This document shows, in pieces, positions 2,160-20,755 of a DNA stretch of 20,755 nt (within the stretch, counting starts at the first letter, position 1; the number at the start of each line of letters is the position of its first letter). The notes beneath the pieces were generated by a model, which was given only the letters and a program-made list of their open reading frames with translations, was not told the origin of the DNA and ran no database searches. The DNA is from a virus. Location of the stretch: positions 1 through 20,755 of the IMG/VR virus record IMGVR_UViG_3300031566_003166. One strand, given 5' to 3'. Position numbers and translations under genes: made by a program.

Positions 2160-5100
2160 TGGCTATTTTATCTACATATTCCAAAACACAAGATACATCC
2201 AGATCGAATTATATTACTAATAAAGAATATATGGAAGGTATCAAGAATAATACCGCAGTAGTGGTACCGGAAGATAGTAGGGTTCCGTTTACCTATCAGG
2301 AATGGGTTCAAAGAAATTCCGGAATTATACCTGGAAAGGAAACCGTTCAATATAATCAATATGTTAAAGCTTGGTACAATAACACATATACAAACACCGA
2401 TACCACAAATGATTTGCGTTCAGATTATATATCTTTGCTTAAGGAATTAAAATTATACGGAAACGAGGAAGATAAGAAATGGCTTGAGGATATAGATTTT
2501 GATGATCCATTGGATATTGACGACGCAATTCCATTGTTTGTTAAGAAACTAAGAGAGATATCAATATATTTTATTAACAAACGGGAAGCAATAAAAAAGG
2601 CTAAACTAAAATATAATATGGTTGGTTCTGAAAATGCATTAAGAACCCTATTTTATGAATATCTATTAAAGGCATTTACACAAAGAGATTATGTTTTAAA
2701 TGTTCCAGAACAATCAGCATATGATACATTTCCAGATTTGTCTGCTATATCTACTGGATTTAAAATCATATTAGAAGAATTGTATGATGATACAAACTAT
2801 TATGATAAAGATCCAACGGTTGCTGTTTCTTCATATTATGATCTCGAATCCGCAACAGTATCATCATATTTTGATAGTTTAGGGTTTGAAATTTCGGCGT
2901 TGAACTGGTTATACGGAACGGGAGTTAATGCGTTAGATGCAAACAATCCATTATTATGGACAATAAATACAGTACTGAAATCCCATGGAGTTTCTGATGT
3001 ATCCGCATTACCATTATCTGCATATTCTGAGTTCAATAGAGAAGTATTAAATGATTATGTTAGGTTTGATGCTACCAAGAAATATATTGGAGAGAACCAA
3101 TACATATTATCGGGTGGTTATTATGTTTCTGATACTCGTACTGTTGAACATACTTTGGTGTCCGGAAATAACTGGTTCTACTTCCCATCTGGAGAATACT
3201 TCAGGGAATATGAACAAGACATTGTATTTGATCCTATATATTTAAGCGCAACATCATTAATAAACGATGGGGCAATAGCCGCCAATAATTATAAGTTTGC
3301 TGATAAGATTTTTATCCAAAATAACAACGCAATTTCTGGTTCTTGGTTAAAGTATACTTCTGAAAATATATTAGAAGATACTATGAAGGCAACACTATTT
3401 GAATCAAGAAACACAAGATTTAGATTTCCATATCCAGGATATGGAACAAGTGGGGATGGATTGGATTGGAGCGGCCCATTACTAGAAAATTCATATTATA
3501 TAGATACATATGATGATTCTATATTAAACAAATATTGGAAAACAGTTCCAGTTTCAGCTATCAATCCTATAAACATAAATGATACCAAGTTGATTGATAT
3601 TGGTGCTATTCCGTCACAAACACATTTAAGTGCAGATAAAATATCAGTAAGAACAACTACGGTATCAGATGGAATACATGATTTCAATCCAGATACATTA
3701 TATTCGGGTCCGTTTGATCGGGCATGGTTGTATAAAATGATTAATACTGATATACCAATATCAGTCGGTAAAACATTTATTAACTGGCCATTACACACAT
3801 ATAATCCAGACAATCCTGACCTACCAATGAATATACTTTCCAGTCAATGTATTCCTATTACATTATCATCAATAAGCGTTGAAACTGCAATTGTCGGTGC
3901 TAGATCAGGATATGGATTATATGACAGTGATATGATATATAAACTAAATGCACCAAATGGTTATCCTGTTGAGTGTGCATGGCTAAGTGGACTGGACTTA
4001 AAGACATTGGCTGGCAGCAATTCTACGCTTGTTTATAATGCAACTGGAAAAATACAACCATCACTTACATTGAAATGTAAACCCGGAAACTATGAAACAT
4101 TTGTATGGCAAGATTCTTCAATATTTATAGACGAGACTTCTATTGTACATTATAATCATCAAGTGGATTGTCTATATTACATAAACGATCATAAATCAAT
4201 TCATGATACTAAAAATATTGGTATCGTAGACTTAGCAACGAACGGTATTGGCGATTGGAATGACTGTACTTGTAGAGCAATAAAATATTCTCCATTAGGA
4301 CATCCTGGATCTAATTATAGTGATTATTCATATATGACTGATATAGTATTTGTTGATACACAGTTCCCTGAACATTTTGATTTGGATTCATGGAGAGGAA
4401 CAGATTCGTTAGGATATAAGTCAAGCAAGGATTTTGCATTCTATCAAGTATCAGGAAATAATCCCGAACCAGATGTTGGTTGGGGTGCGGGTCAATGGAA
4501 AACCGGAGATGGATCTAGATTTCGATTTGAAACTGGTGTTGTGTACAAATACCTACGAAGTAATTTACTTAGAAATCCTGGAGACCTAATCGTTGATTTT
4601 GTTCCTAATTTAATTATAAAACACAAGCACACAAATACTACCAAAGCAGAATGGATGAAAGCCACACTAGATACTGATGGTATTTGGGAAAAGAGCACGT
4701 CAGCATCACCAATGGTATTAAATGCCGGTGATTTTATTATGTATGATCATATAGATTCTAATTGGTATTGTTTAACAAGTGACGATACCAGAGGATCTAC
4801 CGTTGGAACATATTTAGCATCCAGTGTAAGCATAGAAGCTAATCCATGGTATACTAGCAACCATCTTACAACTGGTCAGTACGTGGATTATGTGTGGCCA
4901 GTAGGATTTTATGATGATGGTCCAGAACATTCCGCAGCAGAATTAACCGCTGTTGTTTGGAATTTGATTAAGCCAGATTCGACTAATGTTGAAACAATAA
5001 AAATATCACCAAACAATAAATTTTCATATCTTATTGATCAGATTGGGGAATATCAAGTTTCTGGTATTGGTTATGGTCCATTTGCACCAGAAACGTTTGT

Positions 5101-7057
5101 GGTTTTACCGCCAGTAAGCGGAGTTAATTTTGATTTAACCACAGAACTAAGCGGTAGTCTTGGTATTACAACCAGATATAATGACAGAATTAATGCAGTA
5201 ATAAATATACCACTTAGTGGATGGGATTATACATCAAATGTATATAATGTAACTGCCGTTGGTGGAAGACCATTTTGGGCAGTTTCATATGATAATTCAT
5301 CGGGTCAAACAAAACAAAAAGGAACAATGACATGGGGCGGTGGTATTCGCACACCAATTGATGATTACACATTTATAACACAACCGGATATATCAAGATT
5401 ATCTTTGGTAGAAAATATATATGTTGATTACAAAAATAATGGAACCGGGAATATTATTTGGGAAGAACCTATAGAATTTAAGATTAATTCGGAAAGCAAA
5501 CGTTGGTGTGATCTTGTTATTAATCCGTTATGTACATCACCATTGAGTTCTTATTTAGATAACATAAACACAGAAATGGTTATATCTGCAACAAACAATC
5601 CTTCTGATATTATATTAAGTAACGAATCAGAAATGTTTGTTAATTATTGGGCAAATTCCGCAATCACATGGAAACAGGCATTAGTAAATTCGACGAATGG
5701 AATACCACCAACAGGTGGATTATGGGTTGATTATATATCTGGAACATTAGTTGATGCATTAGTTCCATATGCAAATATTTTAAATCGACATTTTCCAACA
5801 ATAGCCACAATACCATATATTGGGGATTTGTATTCCAGAGAAGATGTTGGGGGATATTTCCTACCAAAACTTATGGGGCTAACCACATATATTGGTAAAG
5901 GATATACAAACACTATTTATACTGATGATCTGGAAAATACATATAATAGAGAATTATCAGCGATATTTCAGAATCCTGCATTATATACCAGAGATGCTGG
6001 GGTATCTAATAAAACACAAATTAAACCAATATCTTCTACGAATATAGATTCTAGTTGGTTGAAAACCGGGATTACACTGGATTCATATTCCGGTACGTCC
6101 GATGAGTTACCGGGATATTCAGAGTTTATTCCTTATCAAACAAAATATGAAAGCACCGGATTTAATTATAACGGATTTAAAATTCAAAATGATAAATATG
6201 ATCCTTGGTCTGGAGCATTGGATAATACTTGGAATGACATCCAAGCATTCCCAGAGAATTTTAGAGGGGAACATAATATTGATTCTTGGTACGGTAACAT
6301 AGAAAATCAAAATAAGTTTGTATATCAATGGAAAACCGATATATTTGGAAATCAATATTTTCTATTAAAGGACAGAGCACTAGAAACAATATACACCAAA
6401 AATAATGCAACTGGATATATGTGGACTAAAAACACAGATGGAAACGCGGTTTCCGCTTCAGTATCACTAAGTTCCATTTATAATAACTTCGGATTATTTA
6501 CTTCTGCTGTATCATCTGATATATTAAACGGGCAAATAAGAGATTTTGATATTTGGTTTGATACAATTATGGTATATACCACTGGGCATTTATTGTTTGA
6601 AAAGATAAAATATGACTATGATACTTCCAGAATATATTCTATAGCCGATGACGTTCATATTATAGATCTATCGAGTAATAACAACGGAAATTATGGTGGG
6701 GTTTGGTTATTTGATGAAGAAAAACACGTTACAATTTGTACTGTGGCATCATCTGATTATGCTGATAATGTAATATATCCTAAATTGTATAATTTAGACC
6801 TAGAATCAAATATATTAACAACTATTTTTGATGGTAGAAACAATGTGGAGTGTAATGAAATATCCTCTGTATTATTAAGTTCTGTAGAACAGCCTGTGTT
6901 CTCCTATAATAACATTAATAATACATATAATATTTCGTTTGTTGGGTATTCCACATATTATGGGGATGGAATGGTACTTACCACTATGAATATACGTAAT
7001 ACTATAGATGATACATATACTGTTGACATTTCGGCAATAACACCAGTGCAATCATAG
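2159..7057 (+). CDS. Giant virion structural protein, 1632 aa (probable baseplate/tail component)
   Basis: The ATG overlaps the previous stop as TAATG, with a strong GGAGGA at 2142-2147 inside the end of the upstream gene. Residues about 40-180 are charged and helical, including FTYQEWVQRNSGIIPG and a run around AIPLFVKKLREISIYF; from memory this matches the N-termini of very large structural proteins of big marine myovirus-like phages. The remaining 1400 residues are beta-rich and full of Ser, Thr, Asn, Tyr and Trp. A Cys-containing patch (WNDCTCRAIKYSPLGHPG, near residue 700) also looks conserved with that family. Residues about 915-985 resemble an Ig/PKD-like domain, and the last 240 residues have propeller-like strands. 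There is no signal peptide or membrane helix. Size, packing and composition point to a virion part; the precise position in the tail is inference. No enzymatic motif was seen. Confidence 0.85.
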   Translation: MAILSTYSKTQDTSRSNYITNKEYMEGIKNNTAVVVPEDSRVPFTYQEWVQRNSGIIPGKETVQYNQYVKAWYNNTYTNTDTTNDLRSDYISLLKELKLYGNEEDKKWLEDIDFDDPLDIDDAIPLFVKKLREISIYFINKREAIKKAKLKYNMVGSENALRTLFYEYLLKAFTQRDYVLNVPEQSAYDTFPDLSAISTGFKIILEELYDDTNYYDKDPTVAVSSYYDLESATVSSYFDSLGFEISALNWLYGTGVNALDANNPLLWTINTVLKSHGVSDVSALPLSAYSEFNREVLNDYVRFDATKKYIGENQYILSGGYYVSDTRTVEHTLVSGNNWFYFPSGEYFREYEQDIVFDPIYLSATSLINDGAIAANNYKFADKIFIQNNNAISGSWLKYTSENILEDTMKATLFESRNTRFRFPYPGYGTSGDGLDWSGPLLENSYYIDTYDDSILNKYWKTVPVSAINPININDTKLIDIGAIPSQTHLSADKISVRTTTVSDGIHDFNPDTLYSGPFDRAWLYKMINTDIPISVGKTFINWPLHTYNPDNPDLPMNILSSQCIPITLSSISVETAIVGARSGYGLYDSDMIYKLNAPNGYPVECAWLSGLDLKTLAGSNSTLVYNATGKIQPSLTLKCKPGNYETFVWQDSSIFIDETSIVHYNHQVDCLYYINDHKSIHDTKNIGIVDLATNGIGDWNDCTCRAIKYSPLGHPGSNYSDYSYMTDIVFVDTQFPEHFDLDSWRGTDSLGYKSSKDFAFYQVSGNNPEPDVGWGAGQWKTGDGSRFRFETGVVYKYLRSNLLRNPGDLIVDFVPNLIIKHKHTNTTKAEWMKATLDTDGIWEKSTSASPMVLNAGDFIMYDHIDSNWYCLTSDDTRGSTVGTYLASSVSIEANPWYTSNHLTTGQYVDYVWPVGFYDDGPEHSAAELTAVVWNLIKPDSTNVETIKISPNNKFSYLIDQIGEYQVSGIGYGPFAPETFVVLPPVSGVNFDLTTELSGSLGITTRYNDRINAVINIPLSGWDYTSNVYNVTAVGGRPFWAVSYDNSSGQTKQKGTMTWGGGIRTPIDDYTFITQPDISRLSLVENIYVDYKNNGTGNIIWEEPIEFKINSESKRWCDLVINPLCTSPLSSYLDNINTEMVISATNNPSDIILSNESEMFVNYWANSAITWKQALVNSTNGIPPTGGLWVDYISGTLVDALVPYANILNRHFPTIATIPYIGDLYSREDVGGYFLPKLMGLTTYIGKGYTNTIYTDDLENTYNRELSAIFQNPALYTRDAGVSNKTQIKPISSTNIDSSWLKTGITLDSYSGTSDELPGYSEFIPYQTKYESTGFNYNGFKIQNDKYDPWSGALDNTWNDIQAFPENFRGEHNIDSWYGNIENQNKFVYQWKTDIFGNQYFLLKDRALETIYTKNNATGYMWTKNTDGNAVSASVSLSSIYNNFGLFTSAVSSDILNGQIRDFDIWFDTIMVYTTGHLLFEKIKYDYDTSRIYSIADDVHIIDLSSNNNGNYGGVWLFDEEKHVTICTVASSDYADNVIYPKLYNLDLESNILTTIFDGRNNVECNEISSVLLSSVEQPVFSYNNINNTYNISFVGYSTYYGDGMVLTTMNIRNTIDDTYTVDISAITPVQS

Positions 7058-7078
7058 GTTGCTATACATCACTTTAGG

Positions 7079-7086
7079 ACTAAATA
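7079..7086 (+). promoter_or_regulatory. Candidate late-promoter-like element (ACTAAATA)
   Basis: One of only two gaps larger than a base or two in this window contains ACTAAATAATTA 20 bases upstream of the next ATG. It matches 6 of 8 bases of the T4-type late promoter TATAAATA, and the same core (TAAATA followed by A/G-TTA) recurs in the other gap at 18316-18325. In DNA this AT-rich a chance match is easy, so this is only a candidate. Confidence 0.25.
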
Positions 7087-7105
7087 ATTAAAATAGGATA
7101 TTATT

Positions 7106-10100
7106 ATGGCAAAAGATATTGCAGTAGCTAACTTTACCATTACCCCACTAAGCGGGTTTGTGGATAATGGTAACAAATTTACATTAGATTGGGAACTTAC
7201 CACAACACAAACTGATGTATTATCTGGATTTACTAGAATATTTAGATATGTTGGTGATTATCCACCCGATCAAATCAGCGAACCAGATTTAAGTGATTAT
7301 ACCGTTATTCACGAAACTTCTGGGTTGGACGTAATGACATATGATGATGATTTATCCGAATATACTTCTGAACAATTATCTCAAATTTTTACATGTAAAC
7401 GGAAACTTTTTTATGCCATCCGTGGTATAGAATGGACAGAAGCAGGTAGTTTTGTTTACTTGGATTCGTTTTCTTTTATTGCTATCTCCAATCAGGGGTC
7501 GGTAAAAGCTACTGACGACCTAAACACGGTTACCAACACTGGTGTTATGGCATCCGTAAAATCCTCTAAATCTCAGGTAAAATATAATACATTATATGAT
7601 GAGGGGCAAAACGTATGGGCTGCACATTATGGTGATTTGGGGGTAAAGTGGCTATCCAGAACAACCATTGATCCAAATACCACTCGTACTGCTTTTTATG
7701 GTGGTACTGTATGGTATGCTGATCGTTGGTCATCATATGTTCTTAGAGTAAAACTACATAACGGAGAAGTTGAAGGAAGATATTCTATTGGGGATGGAAT
7801 GATAAGAGGAATCGCAGTTGACCCCGAAACTGGTGATTGTTATGCTGGTGGTAGCAACAATACATTGTATAAAATATCCTATTCTGATGACACCGTACAA
7901 CAGATTGCTCATATTAATGAATCTATACCAACTTTTAGTTACGGAATGGTACATTATGGTGGAACATTTTATGAATCCAGATTCAGAGAAGATGGGCTTA
8001 CAGGGGTAGTTAATTATACTTGGGTATTAAACGATAATGGAACAGTAAATGGTTATAAGTCTGGAGCAACAAATGCTGGATATGGAATTACAGTTGGAGC
8101 GGATGGTATTGTATGGATTAACAAATATATAACAGAATTTGCATCTGCATTTGAAACACATAATCCTATTGTAACGGAAACATATGAAATATCAACATCA
8201 GATTGGCAGGCAAGCAGAGGTATTTGTACAGATTTTCCACTTACGTCTGATATAGAGGATTACAATGTTTACGCCTCTGTTGGATATGCACAAGGTCCAT
8301 GGGATAATAGGGTATATAAAAAACATTGGAATGGATCAACATTTGATGCAACCACAATATATCACAGAATATCTTCTGTTTTTGGTGTCGGAACAGATTC
8401 TGAAAATAATGTATGGTGTGTTGGTGATACCAATAAACTGTTTAAAATATATTCAGATGAAATACATGGAACACCAACAAATAGTTTTCCGTCTGGTGGA
8501 TATTGTACATATCTTAATGTACCATATACAGAATGGAAACAACCAACTACAAGTTGGAGAGAATTAGATTATGTATTAACAAGAGATCCAACATTAATGA
8601 CTGTATCTGCTGCTGGTGCGTGGGATACTATTGTAGAATCGCTAACAACAGCAGAAACTAAAACAGCAACAGTTGGGGGAGATTCATTATCATATACAGT
8701 AACATCATGGGGAAAACGTATTATTGGTATTGACGACAAGAACCGAAAAGAAAATGCACAGGATTGGATTGATACTCATGGAGCATACAGTTTCAATACC
8801 AGCGGAATACGACTTTATCCATTATATGACAACATCACAAATGAGGGGTTGGTAGAAATAGATAGCGAATATGGTGCGGCATACCAATATAGTGATTTTA
8901 CTGGTGCAGCAAATTCACAATTGTCTGATATTACTGATCTTATTGAATACCCATCAAATATATTAAGTATGCATCCAGACTACATTTCCCCAGAAATAAC
9001 AATACGTTTTGGTTATGTAAATAGTACTCCAAAATTAACCGATGGAAACTATTGGGACGCACTAGCGGTTTCTAATGGAAATAATATATCTGGATATGAT
9101 GACTTAAATGTTAGATGTGATATAAGCGTTAATACCAACAGTTTTTCATTAACTGGATATCATTATAATTTCGGAGATAGGGTTCTTGATATTGGAGGAG
9201 ATACAAATACATCAGTATTTTTAAATGATACTGAAATATTTAATGAATATACTTATCATGATCCATCTAAGAGTGGAAAGCCAGCATCACGATTTAGTGG
9301 TGGTCCGGGAGAAACCAATGGAATATATTCCGTTGAGGTATCTGCCACTGGTAATATTAATTGTTATTTAGTTTCTGGTGTTGATCCAAACTATAACGTT
9401 CCAGTGTCTGCTGGTGCAACAGGAACAGTAGAGGCTTGGGAGAGGTGGCCTACTGCTAGTCAAACAGTTATACCATACGACAATGTTGCATTACGTAGTT
9501 CACTCTGGTCAGATTTAACACAAGCATTATCGGTTGGTGTTATAAACGGAATAGTTTCGGGATATGATCCAGTATCAGCAGTATTTAACGATCAATCAAT
9601 AGCAAGAACCTGGCCGCTATGTGCATGGGATTTTACTTTTGGTGATGGATCATCAGATACATACGAAACAGAAGATGCTACATTTGCACCAAGAGACACC
9701 CAAACATTAAACAATGAGATAACCTCACATGTTTACTATAGGGTGGGAACGTATTATGAAACTATGTCTGTACGAGCAAGCAATACAAATACGGAATCTG
9801 CCGCACTTGATACCATGAACGTTGCTGTAACAACAGAAATTCAGGTAAAAGAAAATCCAGCATATGCAAACTTTTTAGTAATGGCGGTGTCAACAGTTTC
9901 TGCTAATTATAGTGATGATATAGAAAACCCAATAGAGGATTATCTATCAGTAGATCAACCACCAGTTGGCATAATGAGTGCCTTGATTTCTGGATATGCT
10001 CCTAATCTGTCCATAACATTTATGGAGTCTTCAGTTCCACACTCATTACCAATAAGTGCATATAATTGGAATTTTGGTAACTGGTATAGCGAATCAACTA

Positions 10101-10780
10101 TGACTAGTGCTATAACTGCTGGTACTATACTTACGGATTATCCATCATGGACAACAGAAAGGACTAACCATATGATTACGCATACATATGTTATGCCGGG
10201 AGTGTATGATGTTTCTTTATGTGTAGAAACAAGCACCACAAGTATGGAAAGTTGTTGTGCCAGAAACAATTTTGTGTATGTTGAGGAAATACCACCAAGT
10301 AATTGTGATATACGGGCGAGCAGGGCACTAACAGGACTCTTTACGGATCTTAGTGCAATTAGTGGAGATATAGGAACAATATATTTTAACCTATCATCCC
10401 TTATTCCCGGATCTTTTCCTATCGGAATTATTGATTGGGACTTCGGGGATAGTACCGATATAGAAAGAGTAACCAGAACACCATTTACTAGTATTATTAG
10501 CGGAGCAACTGCATATCCAAACGATATAACAGACCCAAGAAATGTTTTTGTATCACATAAATACACAACATTGGATACATTTGATGTGTATACTTCCGCG
10601 TATGCGGCTAATACTAATACATATATTTCTTGTTCGGGATCTATCGGACCATTTGATGATTTTGTTAAATTATCAGGAAAGAGGCATTTAATAAGTAGTA
10701 GAAATAATGAAGATAATATCTTATTTGTATTTGAAGATGAACTTCAAAATAAAATTTACAATGTAGCATTGTCAGGATAA
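7106..10780 (+). CDS. Large virion structural protein with beta-propeller and PKD-domain array, 1224 aa
   Basis: It starts at ATG 7106 with AGGA at 7095-7098, after a 48-base gap. Residues 1-80 look like an Ig/Fn3-type beta domain. Residues about 165-455 contain propeller repeats, for example GIAVDPETGDCYAGG near 235, GITVGADGIVWI near 327 and GVGTDSENNVWCVGD near 425. The C-terminal half carries at least three and probably four PKD-like domains with the W-D/N-F-G-D signature followed by a H-x-Y...G-x-Y/F-x-V strand: a divergent one around NFGD 688-691, then W841DFTFGDG, W988NFGNW and W1111DFGD. PKD and propeller domains are protein- or glycan-binding modules common in surface-exposed phage proteins, so a peripheral tail or host-contact role is likely but inferred. 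It has no membrane segment or catalytic motif. The next gene begins one base after its stop. Confidence 0.87.
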   Translation: MAKDIAVANFTITPLSGFVDNGNKFTLDWELTTTQTDVLSGFTRIFRYVGDYPPDQISEPDLSDYTVIHETSGLDVMTYDDDLSEYTSEQLSQIFTCKRKLFYAIRGIEWTEAGSFVYLDSFSFIAISNQGSVKATDDLNTVTNTGVMASVKSSKSQVKYNTLYDEGQNVWAAHYGDLGVKWLSRTTIDPNTTRTAFYGGTVWYADRWSSYVLRVKLHNGEVEGRYSIGDGMIRGIAVDPETGDCYAGGSNNTLYKISYSDDTVQQIAHINESIPTFSYGMVHYGGTFYESRFREDGLTGVVNYTWVLNDNGTVNGYKSGATNAGYGITVGADGIVWINKYITEFASAFETHNPIVTETYEISTSDWQASRGICTDFPLTSDIEDYNVYASVGYAQGPWDNRVYKKHWNGSTFDATTIYHRISSVFGVGTDSENNVWCVGDTNKLFKIYSDEIHGTPTNSFPSGGYCTYLNVPYTEWKQPTTSWRELDYVLTRDPTLMTVSAAGAWDTIVESLTTAETKTATVGGDSLSYTVTSWGKRIIGIDDKNRKENAQDWIDTHGAYSFNTSGIRLYPLYDNITNEGLVEIDSEYGAAYQYSDFTGAANSQLSDITDLIEYPSNILSMHPDYISPEITIRFGYVNSTPKLTDGNYWDALAVSNGNNISGYDDLNVRCDISVNTNSFSLTGYHYNFGDRVLDIGGDTNTSVFLNDTEIFNEYTYHDPSKSGKPASRFSGGPGETNGIYSVEVSATGNINCYLVSGVDPNYNVPVSAGATGTVEAWERWPTASQTVIPYDNVALRSSLWSDLTQALSVGVINGIVSGYDPVSAVFNDQSIARTWPLCAWDFTFGDGSSDTYETEDATFAPRDTQTLNNEITSHVYYRVGTYYETMSVRASNTNTESAALDTMNVAVTTEIQVKENPAYANFLVMAVSTVSANYSDDIENPIEDYLSVDQPPVGIMSALISGYAPNLSITFMESSVPHSLPISAYNWNFGNWYSESTMTSAITAGTILTDYPSWTTERTNHMITHTYVMPGVYDVSLCVETSTTSMESCCARNNFVYVEEIPPSNCDIRASRALTGLFTDLSAISGDIGTIYFNLSSLIPGSFPIGIIDWDFGDSTDIERVTRTPFTSIISGATAYPNDITDPRNVFVSHKYTTLDTFDVYTSAYAANTNTYISCSGSIGPFDDFVKLSGKRHLISSRNNEDNILFVFEDELQNKIYNVALSG
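9118..10640 (+). repeat. Array of four PKD-like domains (protein-level repeat)
   Basis: Four successive domains share a W/Y-x-F-x-x-G-D-like turn and, 35-60 residues later, an H-x-Y-x-x-x-G-x-Y/F-x-V strand, which together define the PKD fold. The second (W841DFTFGDG with SHVYYRVGTYYETMSV) is a textbook match. The third has Asn in place of the usual Asp residues (WNFGNW), and the first is the most divergent. They differ in sequence and spacing, so this is an old domain array rather than a recent DNA tandem repeat. Confidence 0.75.
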
Positions 10781-10781
10781 T

Positions 10782-13700
10782 ATGAATACAACATCAGTAA
10801 CAGAATCTAATCTTATATCATTATCCGCCGATTACAGTTATAAAACCGGAGTTGGGTTTATTCCTGTACGGGATTATTATAACGATGGATATACTTTTGT
10901 AAATAATCCAATTTTTAATTATGCAAAAGATGTTAGGTTTGCCAACGACACATTATTTTTTGTAACGTCAGCAGGAACCTTTGGCAATTTTATTGAGTCT
11001 GATCAGGGAGATGCTGTTTTCTCAACACTTGTTTCATATATTTCATTATCAGCAAATGGTAAATTCATAACAAATGTAAGTAATGCATTATATCTTTCGG
11101 GTGACGGTGTTACACCAACAGATGAACAACTGTTCCGATTAACTATTAGTGATGGATCGGCAGCAATTTCATATGGTAAAAAGTATTTCACCGTTAATAG
11201 AACCGCACCATGGAATATAACACTAGCAGATGCTATACAAGGCGATCCATATCATCAGCAAGTATTCGATTATTGTGTTGTTGATGACACTATTGCGCTA
11301 TCAACTAAATTTACAACCAATGAATCTTATGGTCCATCTGTTGTAAAGAAATATATTTCATATAGTAGCGTAACCGATACAATTCGTGCTATTGGTATAA
11401 TATCTGATGATGATTATGATCCAAGTAATCCATACATATTTACGATGGGTCTATATGAAGATAATTTACAAATAGGGTTTTATGATAATGTTGGGTGGGT
11501 AAAATATTATAACGAATATTATAACAAGCAAAATAATACCAATGCAGAAAAGGAAGAAACTGTTTTTAATATAAAACAAAACTATTTGGTGGATTGTCCG
11601 TATAAAACAAAGGTTAATAATACTCATGGTGCTATGAACATTAACATAGCCAATTTAAAAAACATACAAACACCTGAATACGAAACAACACAAACTCCAT
11701 ATATTTGTGGTAATACTCTTGTACCAGTAACTTCGGCTAATAAAAACGATGCGCTTAAACGAAGAGAATATGAAAAAATATTTACAGGAACAAATCAGGA
11801 TTATGGGTTTGAAAATCCATATTTAGGCTTTACTGCGAGCACCAAAGAAGTTGTTTTTAAAAAGGACAATGTTACATATTTTCATTATCCTAAAACCGCA
11901 CTTGCTGGAATTGCACTGTCTTCAATGGGAATAGAAGATAGTGGCTCTACTGCTGGAACAACACCATTCCGAGCAGATAAAATATGGAAGAAAAATGCTA
12001 ACTATTCCAAAAACATTTGGTGGGGAGATTCCATACCTTGGCAACACGGAACTTGGTTATGTTCGTGGTTATCAGGCAACGAAGTTAATAAGGCATGGAT
12101 GGATAGATGGTTTTATCCCGGTTATGTAACATTAATACATGCAATATCAAGTAACACAGATACATACACCGTAGTACCAAATAGCGGTGATCTTGTTTGG
12201 GACGAACCATCACGAATGACATTTGATGGTGGAGTCTGGTATAAATATTATCATTTTGGTGAATTGGGTAATAACAGTGTTGTATCAACATTAACAGGTG
12301 ATGGTACCGAATTAAAACTTAACTTAAAAAATTGGGCACCCACAACAGAAGACAGTTCTCCATATAATAATGACGGAACAATAGAAAACTATAAGGCGGG
12401 AGTTATAAACGGAAACGCAATAGTATTAAATGGTGTTGATCAGGACTGCATGGTTCCATACAATAGTAGTTATTTCTTAACCGGAGATATGAGTTATTCT
12501 GTTTGGATAAAGACCAATAACTGGGGTAACTGTAAAGCCAAGAATCTTGTGGGAACAGAATTCCGAGGTGGTTGGGGATTGGGATATACAAACGGCTTTA
12601 GTAGTTCTATATATCCTGTTTATGATACAACATATGGTCACGTAGTTTTTACTAACATAAACGATAAAATGTATTTTGACAGACTATTGCCTACCAGCGG
12701 AAGTGAACTTACAGAAGCAGGAAATCCAACAGTTATATGCTTGGATAATAATTTGTATACATGGATTCTCGATGATAAGTATAAAAAGGTACATATAATA
12801 GATTATAATGGAGACATTGTTAAACAAATAACCTTTGACAGTAGCGTTACACTTAGTGACATGGCAATAAATAGTGCTGGAAACGTAGGAATATTAGATA
12901 CTGTTAGTAATAATATATCAAGCTTTACATTTAACGGAACATTTGATTCGGTGTCTGCGGTTTCGTCTAGTTATATATGTTTTGATTACGACTTATCAAA
13001 TAACATTGTTGGAACAAGCGGAAATGATATATGCGTGGATAACGACGGAGTAACATGGGTAGCAAACGATGATGGAATATTGAAAGCCGGAACTCTTATA
13101 TATGCATATTCTGATGCTGTTAGAATTGTATGTGATGCTGATAATTCCATTTGGGGAACCAGTAGCAATACATATATTAAATTAAATTCTGCTGGTAGTG
13201 TATTACTTTCGGGGTCTATAGGAAATACAACCACAAACATGGATTTAGGGTTCATTAACGAATACGATGATGGTTTATATTATGATAGGGTATTATTCGT
13301 TAATAGTACCGATAATAAGATCTTTAAGTACACAATTAGTGGAGTATACATAAGTGATAACAACCTATTAGATGGTATAAATACAATTCTTTATTCTGAT
13401 GAAGTTCAAAGTTCTATTTCATTCCAAGCAAAGGGAGATTTTACAGGATATGATTGGCAGCGAAAATATAATTATGTATTAAACGGAGAAACTACATATA
13501 TAAGAGCAAATACCAATTTTGGTAATTTATTACTATCTGCAACGTCTACGCTAAAGTATCCAACTTCCGGTTTGGTAAATAATAAATGGCATCATTTTAT
13601 GGTACAATATAATTCAGTATCGGGTGAGTGTAATTTGTATGTAGATACCGCATTAGAAGATACGGTGTACGTAAACGCAGGATCAAACATATTCTATTAC

Positions 13701-14102
13701 TATAAAAATCCATTGCTTATTGGAGCCAACGTAGGAAAACGATTGCCACTAGATACGGAACTTTCTATTGATACATTCCATGCCAAGGCAGATTTTAAAG
13801 ATTTAAGAATTTATAACACAGTTCTCGATAGATCAGATGTAATGCATATTTATAAATTGGAATTGAATTTTTATGATATGACATGGAATATGCCTATAGG
13901 ATCACAGGAATTTATGGAAGAAATTGAACGGTTCTTTAAGCATAAAGTACCAGGAATTAAATCACAGTACTTTAATATTATATTAAAAGGACTAAATATT
14001 ACTAACGAGGAAACGCGAAGTTTGATAGAAGATATAATAAAAGATACAGTTAAGAAAATATCACCAGCATATACTGAACTGTATAGTATAATATGGAAAT
14101 AA
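10782..14102 (+). CDS. Large virion structural protein with LamG/jelly-roll domain interrupted by a beta-propeller, 1106 aa
   Basis: It starts one base after the previous stop (TAATATG), with a short-spaced AGGA at 10774-10777. Residues 1-510 are beta-rich without a domain I can name, including a Trp-rich patch (QHGTWLCSWLSG). Residues about 520-605 match the first half of a LamG/concanavalin-like domain (GNAIVLNGVDQD at 544-555, YSVWIKT around W575, GGWGLGY at 596-602). Residues about 649-865 are propeller repeats (ICVDNDGVTWVANDDG). Residues about 879-1026 then complete the LamG pattern (W936HHFMVQYN, NLYVD at 951-955, DLRIYNTVLDRSD from 1007). The last 65 residues are helical. LamG domains bind glycans or proteins, so a receptor-binding or tail-peripheral role is plausible, though not shown by the sequence. 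Confidence 0.87.
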   Translation: MNTTSVTESNLISLSADYSYKTGVGFIPVRDYYNDGYTFVNNPIFNYAKDVRFANDTLFFVTSAGTFGNFIESDQGDAVFSTLVSYISLSANGKFITNVSNALYLSGDGVTPTDEQLFRLTISDGSAAISYGKKYFTVNRTAPWNITLADAIQGDPYHQQVFDYCVVDDTIALSTKFTTNESYGPSVVKKYISYSSVTDTIRAIGIISDDDYDPSNPYIFTMGLYEDNLQIGFYDNVGWVKYYNEYYNKQNNTNAEKEETVFNIKQNYLVDCPYKTKVNNTHGAMNINIANLKNIQTPEYETTQTPYICGNTLVPVTSANKNDALKRREYEKIFTGTNQDYGFENPYLGFTASTKEVVFKKDNVTYFHYPKTALAGIALSSMGIEDSGSTAGTTPFRADKIWKKNANYSKNIWWGDSIPWQHGTWLCSWLSGNEVNKAWMDRWFYPGYVTLIHAISSNTDTYTVVPNSGDLVWDEPSRMTFDGGVWYKYYHFGELGNNSVVSTLTGDGTELKLNLKNWAPTTEDSSPYNNDGTIENYKAGVINGNAIVLNGVDQDCMVPYNSSYFLTGDMSYSVWIKTNNWGNCKAKNLVGTEFRGGWGLGYTNGFSSSIYPVYDTTYGHVVFTNINDKMYFDRLLPTSGSELTEAGNPTVICLDNNLYTWILDDKYKKVHIIDYNGDIVKQITFDSSVTLSDMAINSAGNVGILDTVSNNISSFTFNGTFDSVSAVSSSYICFDYDLSNNIVGTSGNDICVDNDGVTWVANDDGILKAGTLIYAYSDAVRIVCDADNSIWGTSSNTYIKLNSAGSVLLSGSIGNTTTNMDLGFINEYDDGLYYDRVLFVNSTDNKIFKYTISGVYISDNNLLDGINTILYSDEVQSSISFQAKGDFTGYDWQRKYNYVLNGETTYIRANTNFGNLLLSATSTLKYPTSGLVNNKWHHFMVQYNSVSGECNLYVDTALEDTVYVNAGSNIFYYYKNPLLIGANVGKRLPLDTELSIDTFHAKADFKDLRIYNTVLDRSDVMHIYKLELNFYDMTWNMPIGSQEFMEEIERFFKHKVPGIKSQYFNIILKGLNITNEETRSLIEDIIKDTVKKISPAYTELYSIIWK
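12324..13860 (+). other. Split LamG domain with nested beta-propeller
   Basis: The strand order of a LamG_3-type jelly roll is seen in two pieces separated by about 270 residues. The N-half ends at the GGWGLGY hairpin (residues 596-602) and the C-half carries the W-H-H-x-x-V, L-Y-V-D and D-L-R-I-Y-N signatures (936-1012). Between them lie propeller-like repeats (about 649-865). The simplest reading is one LamG domain with a propeller inserted in a loop. Two degenerate LamG domains flanking a propeller are the alternative. Confidence 0.6.
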
Positions 14103-14103
14103 T

Positions 14104-17100
14104 ATGGCAGATTCATTAAGTCTTGGAGCATCACAAAGAACGGATGTTAGTATACGAATGTTTGCTGTTGCAACACAACAGCAAAGCACCCTATCTTCTG
14201 TTGTGTGGTCATGGGATGGAAACACACAATTAAGTGCATATGATTGGGCTACATCTTTAGCATATACAGAAAGTGAACCAATAACGGGTGTTGGAACAAG
14301 TACATTAATCTTTGTTACATATGATGATACACAAACATATAATATTGAAGTTTCGGCGGAAAATGGGTTAACTGATAGTTATATATTTTATCCAAGAAGA
14401 TTTTTTATAAGTCCAATGGAAACAACCACCAGTACAGCTACCCTTAGTGCCATACTTAGTGGTGCAGACGGAACAACAACAGGAATTCCTCCAGTATCAT
14501 ACATCAGTTGGAACTCTGATATTACCGATACATTGGTTTCATATTATATTAAGGGAGTTGTAGCGGATACTGAATATACATTAGGATCGAGTGTTATAGC
14601 AGCTAGTGGTGACTATATGTTATTTGATTCCACGGTTCTATCAACCACAGAAACCTATGTAATAAGTGCTGTAAACGGTGATGCTAATAGAACTGTTGGT
14701 GAATATAGCTTTACTGTCGATACTACAAACGAGGGAAACACATTAAACATATCTACAATATCCTCAACCGATGGCGGAATATTACTTTCTGGAATATTCA
14801 CACAGGGTGGATATACATATACTAACATTAATCCATTATCTTCTATCTTTTGGTATATTACACCATCTGCCACTGTAAACATATTAAGTGCGGGGGGCGG
14901 AGTATATACCCAAGGAGTTAGTGGTGTGGCTGGAGATATAGATAGACTTGATGTAACATACTCAAATTATTTTACAACATATTTAATAAGTTTATGTTCA
15001 AAGGAATATCCAGCATATAGTACAAGTATAACATATGTTCCACAATTAGAACCTCTCAATATGTTGGTTAGTGCAGCAAGTTTTGATAATTTACCAGTTT
15101 ATAGAACACTTTCGGCAGTAGCAGTAGGATATAGAGATACTATTGGATATCATAATATTGGTTCAACATATACGTTGGCATGGGATGCTACCGCACCCGC
15201 TAGTGATTCAATATGGGCTAGAGATATGGAAGGTAATCCATATACGTTTGGAACCAGAAAACCAGCCGGTGTTATTGGAACCATAGTTTTCACAATGACC
15301 GCTAATGAATTTAGTGATACTCCACAAATATCCAGTATGTTGGTATCTTCCGCTTATATTTCTGCGTCACCAAATTCTTCTGACACTATATTCCATACAT
15401 CATCAACATATAGGTTTGATATAGACGAATTTCCAGCCGAAAGTCTGTTTGATATTAATTTCAAAGTTAATAACGAGGACACTTATTATACAAATGGTGT
15501 TTGGAGGGTTTCTGGTGAATATGCAACAGTGGCAGCAACAGCAGTAGATACTTCTATAATACCAAATAAAGATACCACACAAGGATCATATGTTTGGTTA
15601 TCCGGTAGTGAAATATTAGAAACAACGTCTAGTATTGAATTGTTATTTATACCATCAGCTTTTAACACAACATTAATCCTATCTGGTATTGCCATGAGTG
15701 CTGCTAATTGGTTGTCTGCTCATAGTAGTTTTGATTACATGGACATTAACTTTATAGGCAGATTTTTGAGTGCAGATTTTGTGGCTGCTCCTACATATAC
15801 ATGGACTACAAGTGCAGCTTATATACACACCGGAAGTAGCACCACATTAACGGAATCCAGTGGAGTATGTGCATATGGGGAAGGACATACAGAAACGTTT
15901 GTATTAAGTTCTAATATAGTAGGAACTTCATATACATGGGAAATTTCTGGTAAAGTTTACGGTACCACGAAAGTATTACATCCTAATATATCATCTGTTG
16001 CGGATACTACTTTTAATAACTCTGGAAGTGCTATCTTGTTTGGGGTGTTTAATTCTGAATTACCAACCACCATGACAAGACAGCATACCGCAGACTCTGG
16101 TTCGGTAGAATATTATAGCAATTTCAAAACGACATCAAGTACTGATAATACAAGTCCATTATTTCAAAATATACGGATAGTTTCATATGAAGATCCTACA
16201 GCAACAATTACTCCAACAAATTCTGCAACGTTTGTTGTTATTGGTACACAAACACTTGAATCAACTAAAACGATTACATATCCACTATATAGTCCGGTTT
16301 CCGAGGTAAGCGGAGTTTATGCGTGGACATTATCGGCGGCAGAATGGGATGCAAGTATATATCAGTCTGGAACGACATTTAGTACGGTATTATCTTCTGG
16401 TGATGGAATTGTTAACGGAACGATTAATCCTAGTATTTCAACACATTTATCGCTAGATCTTACTGGTGTTGTAACTCAAAATATTGATAATTGGCCTAAC
16501 GATTGGGATAATGTCGATAGAGATGTTACGGCAAGCACTCAATATTTTACGGTATATGCAGCACCACAGTTGGGTATATATGTTGACAGTAATGTTATAA
16601 CCGTAAATGCATCTGCGGAAATACTCAATATAACACCCCAAACATTGTCTAGTATAATATCCGGATTTATCTGGGAAGATACATATGGTAATACACAAAC
16701 GGTTCAGAACTTTTCTTCGTTTACTGTTACATATCCTTCTGCGGGAAATTATTCCATTATGTTATCAGCAGTATTGCATACCGAGGATGTTATTACAAAG
16801 TTATTTACTAACTTTATAACCGTAATTACAGGCTACACTGAATTTGATACTGATGTTGAAAGATTTTATGGAGATACAACACTCACATTACCCAATACTC
16901 TTGAAAGTGTTTATATTCCACCAAACGAATTTACTGATAGAAATAATATTAATAGAGCATTTACAAGATTGGATGATAATTATACGTATTTAAAAAATGC
17001 CTGTAAGTTTTATAGTCCATCACCAATATCTTATACCGGATGGTTGGGATCAATAAATGGAACATTAACAGAATGGAATACTGAAAGTTCACCAAGTAGT

Positions 17101-18288
17101 GCTCATTATATGAGTGTTGCTGGAGTATCATCTGATATATTAAGCGATGTTAATGATGTTGTATCCAGACACGGATATTTGTATGTTGCAGATGATACAA
17201 CGGTAAAAATACTTTCAACTGATAACACAGCAACAGTTATAGCTGAAAGAAGTTTTAACGGAATTGATGATGATTTTCTTAGTATTAATGCTATTGGTGT
17301 AGATTCCAATGAAAATATATTTGTACTAGACACGCTCAGTCATAAGGTTATAGTATTAAATTACAACCACACAAGAGCTAATTGGGAGTTATTGTATAAT
17401 TGGGGCGGATTGGGTGGTCCTATGTCCAAGACAAAATTAAACAGTCCAAATGATTTATATATAGATACTTATGATAATATATGGATAGCAGACACTGGTA
17501 ATAAGGTTGTAAAGGAATATTCAGAAACTGGCGCGTGGTTAAAAACGGTATTACCTACAGATATAACGGGGGATAGCACAGAAAATGGTGGAATTATAGG
17601 TATAACACTTGATTTAACTAATAATTTATATATACTAACAAAAAATATTGTTTATAAATACACCAACACTGGAACATTTATTGCATCGTTTATATTAACA
17701 GAAACCGAAAAAACTCCTGTAAAAATAATATCAGGAAAAGATGGCGGATTTTTGTATATATTATATACTGGATTTGTCCATAAATACACCCTTGGTGGGG
17801 TTTTTGGTGGTCAATTCGCCAATAATCTTACCGGAACACTGGATTATAGAAGCATTTATCATGATGATAGTAGAGATTTATATGTCGCCAATGTGAACAA
17901 TATAATAAAATATCACGACAGAAATGTTATAACAGACGTTGTATTGGCAGCAGGAATAGAAAACGAATGGGATATAGATAGTGACTTAATAGACAAGGAA
18001 GAATATATACAGGATTGGGTATATAATATAGTGTTTTCCCATTTATATGGAAATTTGGCATTATTAAGAAGAAGTATAATAGGTAAAATAGTATTTACCG
18101 AAACGGATATTGGCGGAAGCTTTGAGATCGTTAATTTTACTATCGAGGAATACCAAGACTCTGCTTTTGCGTATGACAGAGAAGATATTTCCATTGGAAT
18201 TAACGAAAAAGTTTCATCTAATGTTGTAAACAGATGTTTGAAACAGTTATACAGTTGTCAAACCCAATTATTAGATTTAATAACATAA
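14104..18288 (+). CDS. Large virion structural protein: Ig/PKD-like repeats followed by a C-terminal NHL beta-propeller, 1394 aa
   Basis: It starts one base after the previous stop, with no convincing Shine-Dalgarno (only GGAA at 14094-14097), so translation probably depends on reinitiation from the upstream gene. Residues 1-910 are Ser/Thr-rich, beta-rich Ig/PKD-like domains; a clear one lies at about 17-90 and another at about 826-910 (FTVTYPSAGNYSIMLSAV). Residues 946-963 form a linker (RNNINRAFTRLDDNYTYL). A six-bladed NHL propeller follows from about 1004 to 1275, including SINAIGVDSNENIFVLDT and S1114PNDLYIDTYDNIWIADTGN. The final 90 residues are helical. From memory, the linker plus propeller resembles a structural protein found in large marine phages. 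I infer a tail or baseplate component. It is the last gene of the structural block. Confidence 0.87.
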   Translation: MADSLSLGASQRTDVSIRMFAVATQQQSTLSSVVWSWDGNTQLSAYDWATSLAYTESEPITGVGTSTLIFVTYDDTQTYNIEVSAENGLTDSYIFYPRRFFISPMETTTSTATLSAILSGADGTTTGIPPVSYISWNSDITDTLVSYYIKGVVADTEYTLGSSVIAASGDYMLFDSTVLSTTETYVISAVNGDANRTVGEYSFTVDTTNEGNTLNISTISSTDGGILLSGIFTQGGYTYTNINPLSSIFWYITPSATVNILSAGGGVYTQGVSGVAGDIDRLDVTYSNYFTTYLISLCSKEYPAYSTSITYVPQLEPLNMLVSAASFDNLPVYRTLSAVAVGYRDTIGYHNIGSTYTLAWDATAPASDSIWARDMEGNPYTFGTRKPAGVIGTIVFTMTANEFSDTPQISSMLVSSAYISASPNSSDTIFHTSSTYRFDIDEFPAESLFDINFKVNNEDTYYTNGVWRVSGEYATVAATAVDTSIIPNKDTTQGSYVWLSGSEILETTSSIELLFIPSAFNTTLILSGIAMSAANWLSAHSSFDYMDINFIGRFLSADFVAAPTYTWTTSAAYIHTGSSTTLTESSGVCAYGEGHTETFVLSSNIVGTSYTWEISGKVYGTTKVLHPNISSVADTTFNNSGSAILFGVFNSELPTTMTRQHTADSGSVEYYSNFKTTSSTDNTSPLFQNIRIVSYEDPTATITPTNSATFVVIGTQTLESTKTITYPLYSPVSEVSGVYAWTLSAAEWDASIYQSGTTFSTVLSSGDGIVNGTINPSISTHLSLDLTGVVTQNIDNWPNDWDNVDRDVTASTQYFTVYAAPQLGIYVDSNVITVNASAEILNITPQTLSSIISGFIWEDTYGNTQTVQNFSSFTVTYPSAGNYSIMLSAVLHTEDVITKLFTNFITVITGYTEFDTDVERFYGDTTLTLPNTLESVYIPPNEFTDRNNINRAFTRLDDNYTYLKNACKFYSPSPISYTGWLGSINGTLTEWNTESSPSSAHYMSVAGVSSDILSDVNDVVSRHGYLYVADDTTVKILSTDNTATVIAERSFNGIDDDFLSINAIGVDSNENIFVLDTLSHKVIVLNYNHTRANWELLYNWGGLGGPMSKTKLNSPNDLYIDTYDNIWIADTGNKVVKEYSETGAWLKTVLPTDITGDSTENGGIIGITLDLTNNLYILTKNIVYKYTNTGTFIASFILTETEKTPVKIISGKDGGFLYILYTGFVHKYTLGGVFGGQFANNLTGTLDYRSIYHDDSRDLYVANVNNIIKYHDRNVITDVVLAAGIENEWDIDSDLIDKEEYIQDWVYNIVFSHLYGNLALLRRSIIGKIVFTETDIGGSFEIVNFTIEEYQDSAFAYDREDISIGINEKVSSNVVNRCLKQLYSCQTQLLDLIT

Positions 18289-18367: not shown

Positions 18368-18850
18368 TTGAAAATACTTGACTACACAAAATTAAAACAT
18401 AATAGCACCCCCGTATCCACAAAAAATATATCAGATGCTATAAAACATTTAACCAAAGCATATAATATTAATTACGATGATATCGTTGGTGAGGTGTTTG
18501 ATGAAAAATATAGTACTTATGATATCCCCGTATTGGACGGTATAGGAGGAGCAAATATCAATGGGTTATTTAAAACGGAAGAGATTGCTGTTGCCAAAGT
18601 TCATATCTTAGCAGGAACAAAAATAGAAGCACATGTACATAACGAGGTTGAAATAATAAAAGTATTGTCTGGTTGTGTTGTGGTGTATTTAGGAGCAGAC
18701 GAAATAAAAGAACATATGATATCAGCAGGGGAACTTCTTGTTATTGATAAAAACGTTAAGCATTATACTATTACGGATACCGTAGATTCAGATATATTAT
18801 GTATAACATTGCCAGCTAGTAAAACATATCCAATACAAGGAGATATATAA
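18368..18850 (+). CDS. Cupin-domain protein, 160 aa, TTG start
   Basis: The gene starts with TTG behind a strong AAAGGAG. The C-terminal half (about 74-150) is a single cupin barrel. Motif 1 fits G-x5-H-x-H-x3-E-x6-G exactly (G83, H89, H91, E95, G102). Motif 2 is degenerate at its Pro/Gly positions but keeps G121 and the metal-ligand H132, so all four usual metal ligands are present. The N-terminal 70 residues are polar and not recognised. Cupins of this size include small enzymes, sugar-nucleotide or polyketide-type binding proteins and regulatory sensors; which applies here cannot be told. No signal peptide or DNA-binding helix-turn-helix is visible. It ends in a TAATG overlap with the membrane protein gene and is in the same run as the protease, suggesting co-expression with them. 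Confidence 0.85.
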   Translation: MKILDYTKLKHNSTPVSTKNISDAIKHLTKAYNINYDDIVGEVFDEKYSTYDIPVLDGIGGANINGLFKTEEIAVAKVHILAGTKIEAHVHNEVEIIKVLSGCVVVYLGADEIKEHMISAGELLVIDKNVKHYTITDTVDSDILCITLPASKTYPIQGDI

Positions 18851-19272
18851 TGCCACCTGAAATTCCACTAGACGAAAATAAACAAATTGTTATAACCCTA
18901 GCCTTAATTCAGAAGGCACTTGAAGATTTAAATACGAGAGTAGGGGATCATCATAAGGTTCTGTTCGGAAACGGAAACCCCGAAGAGAGTGTGGTATGGG
19001 TTATCAAAAAATTATCTGAGGTAATGTCTCAATTAGAAAAGAGCATGGCAACATTTTGTAAGATTGATAGTTGTCCAATTGTTATAGAAAGGGTAAAGGA
19101 TTCTAGAGATCGCAATAAAAATCTAATTGAAAATTTATCATGGAAACAATATTTTAAGGTATTTATGATGAAATGGTTTTGGGCAGTGTGTGCGTTTACA
19201 ATAATTGTTGGCATTTTTCATAGACCATTAACTGCCATAATTGAAAATGTCGCAAAGTTTATAGGAAAATAA
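18850..19272 (+). CDS. Small coiled-coil protein with one C-terminal membrane segment (holin-like or membrane-anchored accessory protein), 140 aa
   Basis: The ATG overlaps the cupin stop (TAATG), with AAGGAG at 18837-18842. Residues about 10-65 look helical and partly coiled-coil. They contain DHHKVLFGNGNPEES (33-47), a motif that resembles, from memory, the H-x-x-L-Y/F-G-N-G-x-P signature of small phage membrane proteins sometimes annotated as putative holins. Residues about 104-123 (VFMMKWFWAVCAFTIIVG) are a single hydrophobic helix, followed by a short amphipathic tail. C70 and C75 form a C-x4-C pair. The layout (long soluble helix, then one C-terminal membrane helix) recalls XhlA-type lysis accessory proteins. 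A holin or lysis role is plausible; a scaffold for the protease or another membrane-linked function cannot be excluded. It overlaps the protease gene by one base. Confidence 0.75.
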   Translation: MPPEIPLDENKQIVITLALIQKALEDLNTRVGDHHKVLFGNGNPEESVVWVIKKLSEVMSQLEKSMATFCKIDSCPIVIERVKDSRDRNKNLIENLSWKQYFKVFMMKWFWAVCAFTIIVGIFHRPLTAIIENVAKFIGK

Positions 19273-20755
19273 TGAAAGACAATCCAATTACATCGTTACC
19301 TCCGCATAAATATACTGATGTTATTAGTACATTATCCCAAGTTAAGGGATGGGAAATCAAGCAAACTAATATTCCAAACACATGGAGAGTAACACAGGGA
19401 GAAGATATAACCGTTATGGTTATTGATACTGGGTGGTCTGATCATAATGATCTTGGTGAAAATTGTCAGAAGGGAATATCTACAGTTCCAAATAACAATA
19501 TAGATGATGTTGAAGGCCATGGTTGTGTAGCACCAGAAACATATATACATACTAATTTTTGTGGAATTGAAAAGATAGAAACTCTTTATAATAGAATACC
19601 CATTACTGAACAGTATGATGAAAAAACAGAAAGTTATATTAAAGATGTTCGATCAATGGGTATAAAAACATATTCATTAAACAATGTTACTGGTAAAACA
19701 GAAATAGATAATATACAATTTATACATAAAACACCAATAAATGATAAAATTATAAAAATAGAACTTGCTGGAAATATTAATTATAAATTAACTGCATGGC
19801 ATCCAATATATACATATAACGCAAAACAACATAAGAAATTTGATATTAATAGAAAACGAGCAGATAAATTACAAATTAATGATAGAATGATTTTTGGTAA
19901 AGGAGAATTTGCCGGACATTTAATTAATGATTATTATAGAACATATGGATTAAAATATCGTCGATGTATTAATTGTGGATATAAACATGAATTTAAAAGA
20001 GAAAGAAAATCCGAATGGAAATGTAAACGCTGTCGTAATAAAAAACATATCGATGAAAATAGCAATTATTTAGTAACAGAAGATTTGGCATATTTGTGTG
20101 GTTTGGTATTAACCGATGGGCATATAGGCAATCCAAACAGAAACCAATATAGAATAGAGATAACGTCTACTACACCAGAAATTTTGGAACAGGCAAAACA
20201 ACGGTTTAATAATTTAGGATTTAATACATCATATATAAGACAAGAAAAAAATAAAGCCAATAGATTAATTATAGACAATAAAGAACTACATTCTATTTTT
20301 GTAAATTTAGGCATATTATTTTTTAAAAAAACATATAATCAATCATTACCGGAATTTGTGGGTAAGTCTCCTTATAGTGTGCAGTGTGCATTTATAGCAG
20401 GTGTGATTGATGGTGATGGGTGTATATCTAAAACAACAGGAAAAAATAGAGTAACAGGAGTATCTAAAGTATTTATTGAACAATTTGGTTGTTTGCTAAA
20501 TTCTATTAATATTAGCGCAGGATATCAAATTAGTAAAAATATATGTTGTAGCGGATTTACTAAAACGGATGGTACTAACGCAATAATTTATAATAGTACA
20601 TTTCAATCATTAAATGAAACTATTATTAAATATATGACACACCCTAAAAAGGTAGAAAGAGCATTAAATCAAATAAAAAACAAAAAATGTCAATATAAAG
20701 CTCGTCGTATTAAAAATATTACTAATCAACAATATAATGGTAGTTTTTATGATTT
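19272..20755 (+). CDS. Subtilisin-family (S8) serine protease precursor carrying an intein (3' partial)
   Basis: The ATG overlaps the previous stop (TAATG), with AGGA at 19263-19266. The frame stays open to the window edge (494 full codons). Residues 1-84 resemble the N-terminus of Bacillus-type intracellular subtilisins: no signal peptide, a W-x-x-T-x-G lead-in (W38 to G43), the catalytic-Asp block VMVIDTG (D52) followed by H-x-D-L, then EGHG with the catalytic His at 83. In S8 enzymes this His motif continues as T-H; here an intein begins at C85 instead. The oxyanion Asn, catalytic Ser and the rest of the fold must lie beyond 20755 in the C-extein. The lack of a secretion signal suggests activity in the infected cell or in the virion, perhaps maturing structural proteins or acting at lysis; this is inference. 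The unspliced precursor should be inactive. Confidence 0.88.
   Translation, partial: MKDNPITSLPPHKYTDVISTLSQVKGWEIKQTNIPNTWRVTQGEDITVMVIDTGWSDHNDLGENCQKGISTVPNNNIDDVEGHGCVAPETYIHTNFCGIEKIETLYNRIPITEQYDEKTESYIKDVRSMGIKTYSLNNVTGKTEIDNIQFIHKTPINDKIIKIELAGNINYKLTAWHPIYTYNAKQHKKFDINRKRADKLQINDRMIFGKGEFAGHLINDYYRTYGLKYRRCINCGYKHEFKRERKSEWKCKRCRNKKHIDENSNYLVTEDLAYLCGLVLTDGHIGNPNRNQYRIEITSTTPEILEQAKQRFNNLGFNTSYIRQEKNKANRLIIDNKELHSIFVNLGILFFKKTYNQSLPEFVGKSPYSVQCAFIAGVIDGDGCISKTTGKNRVTGVSKVFIEQFGCLLNSINISAGYQISKNICCSGFTKTDGTNAIIYNSTFQSLNETIIKYMTHPKKVERALNQIKNKKCQYKARRIKNITNQQYNGSFYD
19965..20033 (+). other. Zinc ribbon inserted in the intein
   Basis: The encoded segment has C148-x2-C151 and C167-x2-C170 separated by 15 residues rich in Lys and Arg. 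It lies between the N-terminal splicing domain and the first LAGLIDADG helix. Such a basic four-Cys module is probably an extra DNA-contacting element for the homing endonuclease. Zinc binding is inferred from spacing only. Confidence 0.7.
20085..20420 (+). other. LAGLIDADG (DOD) homing endonuclease core
   Basis: Two dodecapeptide helices, LAYLCGLVLTDG and FIAGVIDGDG, lie about 100 residues apart, the usual spacing of a monomeric two-motif enzyme. Each keeps the acidic residue (Asp of TDG and of DGDG) that binds the catalytic metal, so the nuclease may be active. Its expected target is the intein-free allele of the protease gene at the codons for the catalytic His motif. Confidence 0.88.

Follow-up and report, generated by a model that had tools for sequence, protein, structure and literature searches.

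A LAGLIDADG intein directly behind the catalytic histidine of a phage subtilisin-like protease

We describe a LAGLIDADG intein that lies right behind the catalytic histidine of a phage subtilisin-like (S8) protease and starts at Cys85, immediately after G84. Very probably this is a mobile intein of class 1 that carries a LAGLIDADG homing endonuclease, placed between the Gly that follows the catalytic His and the Thr of an ISP-like phage protease. The protease gene closes the window, which is the entire 20,755-base IMG/VR record IMGVR_UViG_3300031566_003166; the contig ends inside intein block F and the frame of the last ORF, 19272-20753(+), is open up to that point. The features of this ORF and of the two genes upstream are as follows, where L018, L224 and L245 are loci on other viral contigs.

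18368 to 18850, + strand: upstream cupin protein, syntenic with L018 (32%)
18850 to 19272, + strand: upstream 140-aa membrane protein, syntenic with L018 (47% identity)
19272 to 19523, + strand: N-extein, S8 residues 1-84 (TIGR03921 and 2x8j matches, alignments)
19419 to 19433, + strand: VIDTG with catalytic Asp52 (alignments)
19518 to 19520, + strand: catalytic His83 (alignments)
19512 to 19529, + strand: N-terminal splice junction E-G-H-G / C-V, residues 81-86, with the boundary between 19523 and 19524; shared by L224 and L245
19524 to 20755, + strand: intein, 410 residues and 2 bases present; aligned to L224, it falls about 18 residues short
19524 to 19565, + strand: block A, CVAPETYIHTNFCG, with the Cys1 nucleophile (TIGR01445, alignment)
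19785 to 19805, + strand: block B, KLTAWHP (T-x-x-H), aligned with LTPWHP in L224 and L245
19965 to 20033, + strand: zinc-ribbon-like insert CINC...CKRC between the splicing and endonuclease domains (sequence comparison)
20085 to 20129, + strand: first LAGLIDADG motif, LAYLCGLVLTDGHIG, acidic residue retained (LTDG)
20391 to 20429, + strand: second LAGLIDADG motif, FIAGVIDGDGCIS, acidic residue retained (IDGDG)
20736 to 20753, + strand: block F, NGSFYD, interrupted by the contig end, block F Asp retained

The first-pass annotation had read the protease as running through E-G-H-G straight into an intein Cys1, and this proved correct. The NCBI intein N-terminal model TIGR01445 places its position 1 exactly on Cys85 (E 4.8e-7), the Pfam model Intein_splicing is matched from position 11 to position 137 of its 155 (E 1.3e-8), its 35.2 bits falling just short of the cut-off of 35.8, and LAGLIDADG_3 (PF14528) matches with an E of 7.5e-16. 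Foldseek comparison of the AlphaFold model ranked whole inteins first (TliVMA, PI-PfuI and PI-SceI; best E 1.5e-18), the models being of low confidence (mean pLDDT 58 for the window and 51 for the L245 precursor). An ordinary S8 variant or a frameshift is ruled out by the open frame and by the intein models beginning exactly at Cys85. The assignment to class 1 follows from the Cys1 of block A, the T-x-x-H of block B and the in-frame nature of an insert for which intein-free alleles are known (L177 and L018).

The host part of the protein is short although clearly of the S8 family. Residues 1-84 match the mycosin model TIGR03921 (E 6e-8) and the intracellular subtilisin 2x8j (E 1e-5, phmmer), and phage S8 proteins were matched in a tblastn search in which THVAGIIAA had been appended to the N-extein after G84. 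Asp52 and His83 are invariant in the alignments with these proteins and follow each other in the motif order of peptidase family S8. PF00082 alone stays below threshold on the 84-residue fragment of the window, whereas it reaches 1e-34 to 1e-51 in the homologues. The N-terminal LPPHK stretch is ISP-like: LPPHK, LPPFK and LPPYK of the phage proteins align with the LIPY stretch of intracellular subtilisins, where this stretch is a propeptide, so these phage proteases may already possess an ordinary form of control.

Because the window stops within the intein, complete alleles were essential for defining its far side. An S8 alignment search of the viral contigs returned 239 relatives, 80 of which were kept; these are phage S8 proteases whose GH[QGS][TS]H motif is intact. 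A second search with full-length relatives led to L224 (IMGVR_UViG_3300014656_000031), where the match starts only behind the His motif; its S8 gene is a single ORF of 1127 aa (4588-7968) with two inteins. Intein 1 sits at the His site and is bordered by GHS/CVTADTKIFTNFCGLQKIETL ... YLYDFTVENSNNYIANGIIASN/THCQGII (GHS/C...ASN/THC). It is homologous to the window intein over its whole length (29% identity and E 4e-42 by BLASTP; 34% over aligned residues), and the window copy ends 18 residues before its end in the alignment. Searching with these two His-site inteins revealed L245 (IMGVR_UViG_3300035698_017111, 146.8 kb), whose intein, 34% identical to that of the window, is complete between GHG/CVSPNDYVYTSMCGLQKIQ ... 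HMFDFTIKDYGNYVANGMIVSN/THVSGII (GHG/C...VSN/THV) and has GTSM downstream. The acidic residues of the LAGLIDADG motifs are retained in all three His-site inteins, and the zinc-ribbon-like CxxC...CxxC insert is found in those of the window and L245 and is absent from the L224 allele.

These alleles bear on several points that had been anticipated for the part beyond the contig end. Thr had been predicted as the +1 nucleophile at a G/intein/T junction, and it is in fact the residue that follows the intein in the homologous alleles L224 (SN/THC, after GHS) and L245 (after GHG). The expected division of the catalytic triad was also seen, with Asp52 and His83 before the intein in the window and the Ser motif behind it in L224 and L245; GTSM with the catalytic Ser and the oxyanion Asn are present in L224, L245, L018 and L177, while the window copy ends before that region. 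When the inteins are removed, the exteins of L224 and L245 align gap-free at every junction with intact S8 proteases, the Ser motif included. Furthermore, the NCBI C-terminal intein model matches both L224 inteins through to their final residue, and the Pfam splicing model reaches position 155 of 155 in L224 and L245. A terminal Asn is followed by a permitted +1 residue (Cys, Ser or Thr) in each case (SN/T and HN/S in L224, SN/T in L245), and from these we infer the C-terminal end of the window's own copy, whose block G lies beyond the contig end. A block G ending in His-Asn, which the first-pass annotation had expected, was contradicted: both complete His-site alleles end in Ser-Asn, with Ser as the penultimate residue and with Asn or Gly at the place of the block F His. 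These two histidines are customary in class 1 inteins without defining the class; inteins lacking the penultimate His exist and splice at varied rates (PMC4031507, PMC5050341), and splicing of the His-site alleles could be slow or conditional given the missing block F and G histidines. Between L224 and L018 the exteins behind the two inteins are 61% and 61% identical and the N-extein 50%; the C-exteins are thus conserved as much as the N-extein, which fits working splicing.

The second intein of L224 (L224:6460-7659) lies directly before the catalytic Ser of GTSM, with borders SGT/CLAKGTKVY ... VVYDLTIEDNHNFVAEGLIVHN/SMSTPF (SGT/C...VHN/SMS). It ends in the canonical HN/S, carries both the block F and the block G histidine and is unlike the His-site intein by BLAST. 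Its +1 residue is the catalytic serine itself, so that one and the same serine would act first as the splicing nucleophile and then as the nucleophile of the protease. The interruption of both catalytic motifs, His and Ser, in the L224 protease is the most striking part of the picture, and it lies outside the window. As a separate observation, this region (L224:6448-7671) shows a weak likeness (24%) to a segment of Dmt, the DNA methyltransferase of phages P1 and RCS47, a possible sign that Dmt contains an intein-like element not yet annotated.

The intein is sporadic even among close relatives. Among 151 fetched S8 loci, the only split genes were those of L224 (fetched twice, also as L244) and L245. 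Homologues of the window's structural proteins occur on the L018, L177 and L224 contigs, and within this phage group the intein is found in the window and L224 and is absent from L177 and L018, which have intact proteases. Of the intact alleles, that of L177 is nearest to the window (67% over the N-extein), reading IDREGHS/THCSGII across the site, and L018 shares with the window the gene order cupin, 140-aa membrane protein, S8. For the L245 contig, two structural proteins were tried and no homologue came up. An S8 tree made by a quick method, in which the window is placed by 84 residues only, grouped the window with the intact L177 (98) and L224 with the intact L018 (97), with L245 far off; taken at face value, this quick tree would imply three separate occurrences of the intein. 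The GC content is 26-29% in the inteins and 36-41% in the exteins. The presence and absence among sister phages shows either mobility or repeated loss, and the 34-38% identity among the three inteins could reflect old vertical descent with losses. Identity between L224 and L245 is 38% in the inteins and much the same (39%) in the exteins, although the searches turned up no structural gene common to both contigs; any transfer may have gone in either direction, early or late. Other searches gave little: the whole window protease had no match in the viral contigs, the 140-aa neighbour found nothing but its syntenic counterpart in L018, and the tail protein had no match in the phage records.

Beyond the protease, positions 3-18288 of the window encode very large proteins without PHROG or Pfam names, except for PKD domains in one of them, and these proteins occur in the same order in the 236-kb contig of L018. 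The first protein of the window (3-2159) contains a cysteine-rich zinc-like motif. L016-L038 and their relatives form a large group of phage S8 proteins with Gln after the catalytic His (GHQTHC), many of which have a Pro/Glu-repeat linker and a C-terminal membrane segment, whereas the group of the window has a short Trp-rich tail instead.

According to the mobile-intein reading, the endonuclease would cut intein-free S8 genes at the codons of the His motif and repair would copy the intein in (homing). After translation, the intein would excise by means of Cys1, the T-x-x-H of block B, the terminal Asn and Thr+1; GHG would be joined to THV or THC and the protease made whole. In the unspliced protein, about 400 foreign residues would separate Asp and His from Ser. 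We infer that the unspliced precursor is most likely inactive, as Asp and His precede and Ser follows an insert of 385-410 residues, and on these structural grounds splicing is probably needed for protease activity. This inactivity would be a consequence of a mobile element residing in the most conserved codons of the gene. Activation by splicing follows for most inteins in active sites, their usual location (reviewed in PMC7765530). The further suggestion of the first-pass annotation, that splicing serves the phage as an activation device, was not borne out: the intein is missing from the closest relatives L177 and L018, and its sporadic distribution, low GC and apparently intact homing endonuclease are as expected of a selfish mobile element. 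The uninterrupted protease of the sister phages leaves a regulatory role unsupported.

The opposing view would be that the intein is kept as a regulatory zymogen device, in which slow or conditional splicing, owing to the missing block F and G histidines, times a protease that is harmful early in infection. The split triad, the interruption of both the His and Ser motifs in L224 and the lack of the two assisting histidines in both complete His-site alleles are compatible with this view, as is the finding that splicing rates change in phage inteins with a different penultimate residue (PMC5050341). However, the closest relatives live without the intein, just 2 contigs carry a split gene among the 151 S8 loci, and the low GC and the endonuclease are in keeping with a selfish element; we consider such a role unlikely. 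Its boldest version would be a natural tunable zymogen switch, given that two independent intein lineages have entered the protease at different catalytic motifs, one at His in three phages and the other at Ser in one, that the +1 splicing residue used by the Ser-site lineage is the protease's catalytic serine, and that the lost assisting histidines might make release slow or conditional; this too strikes us as improbable. An element that has decayed, no longer splices and has left the window protease gene dead would agree with the non-canonical blocks F and G of the alleles and with a C-terminal end that falls outside the record. We regard this as very unlikely, as the frame is open for 410 residues, Cys1, T-x-x-H, the block F Asp and the LAGLIDADG acids are all retained, the N-extein is 67% identical to that of L177 and the C-exteins of the homologues are conserved as in intact genes. 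Finally, a single short contig ending within an intein might raise the suspicion of an assembly chimera or a chance joining of an S8 N-terminus to an intein, but the same fusion at the same residue in two other contigs (L224 and L245), with homologous inteins and complete C-exteins, refutes this for practical purposes and leaves it a negligible chance.

The mobile intein is of a kind already known, and what is new are the insertion sites and the host protein family. Like the class 1 LAGLIDADG inteins of Thermococcus litoralis VMA, PI-PfuI and PI-SceI, which gave the best PDB fold matches, the window intein combines HINT blocks A, B and F with an embedded two-motif endonuclease and is inserted in frame at a conserved active-site motif. 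It differs from them in its subtilisin host, in the complete alleles ending in Ser-Asn without the block F and G histidines, and in the zinc-ribbon-like insert of two of the three alleles. Proteases are likewise interrupted by the inteins of chloroplast ClpP (Chlamydomonas eugametos) and Pyrococcus abyssi Lon, as cited in PMC4031507; these concern other protease families and other sites, whereas here the enzyme is of family S8 and is entered at the catalytic His in three phages and at the catalytic Ser in one. The TerL and RDF inteins of mycobacteriophages are also phage-borne class 1 elements in functional motifs, with active homing endonucleases and a variable penultimate His (PMC5050341), but they sit in DNA packaging and recombination proteins and not in proteases. 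Conversely, intracellular subtilisins (ISP, 2x8j) and the S8 proteases of Bacillus phages FADO and Goe3 and of Moorella phage MTATph1 share the S8 fold, the N-terminal LPP/LIPY-like stretch and the lack of a visible signal peptide, and none of them carries an intein.

No intein at this S8 site was known to the first-pass annotation, and our searches agree. A search of 50,697 phage records found no intein-bearing S8 protein, and neither did one of the literature, in which ClpP and Lon (as cited in PMC4031507) were the only proteases with inteins; that search was limited to open access and is hence no proof. The exact pattern GHG/C plus an intein start was also scanned for in 84,980 prokaryote genomes and in the viral contigs, giving 68 genome and 6 viral hits, all by chance. 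This is a weak negative, since the pattern (D..GHGC + intein start) fixes GHG ahead of Cys1, demands that the codon at intein position 6 be for Thr or Ser, and would miss L224 (GHS/C), L245 (Asp at intein position 6) and Ser1 inteins. With this case, subtilisins join the intein-invaded proteins. There are two insertion points in the active site, some of the alleles are complete, and sister phages without the intein provide a matched comparison, so that the old question of whether active-site inteins are ever regulators or only selfish becomes testable. Moreover, the His-site alleles, in which the histidines of blocks F and G are missing, offer fresh material for splicing chemistry and for protease-caging tools. 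In another phage, at L038:1-3186, we also noted a ribonucleotide reductase gene interrupted by an intein region that includes a GIY-YIG endonuclease in a different frame.
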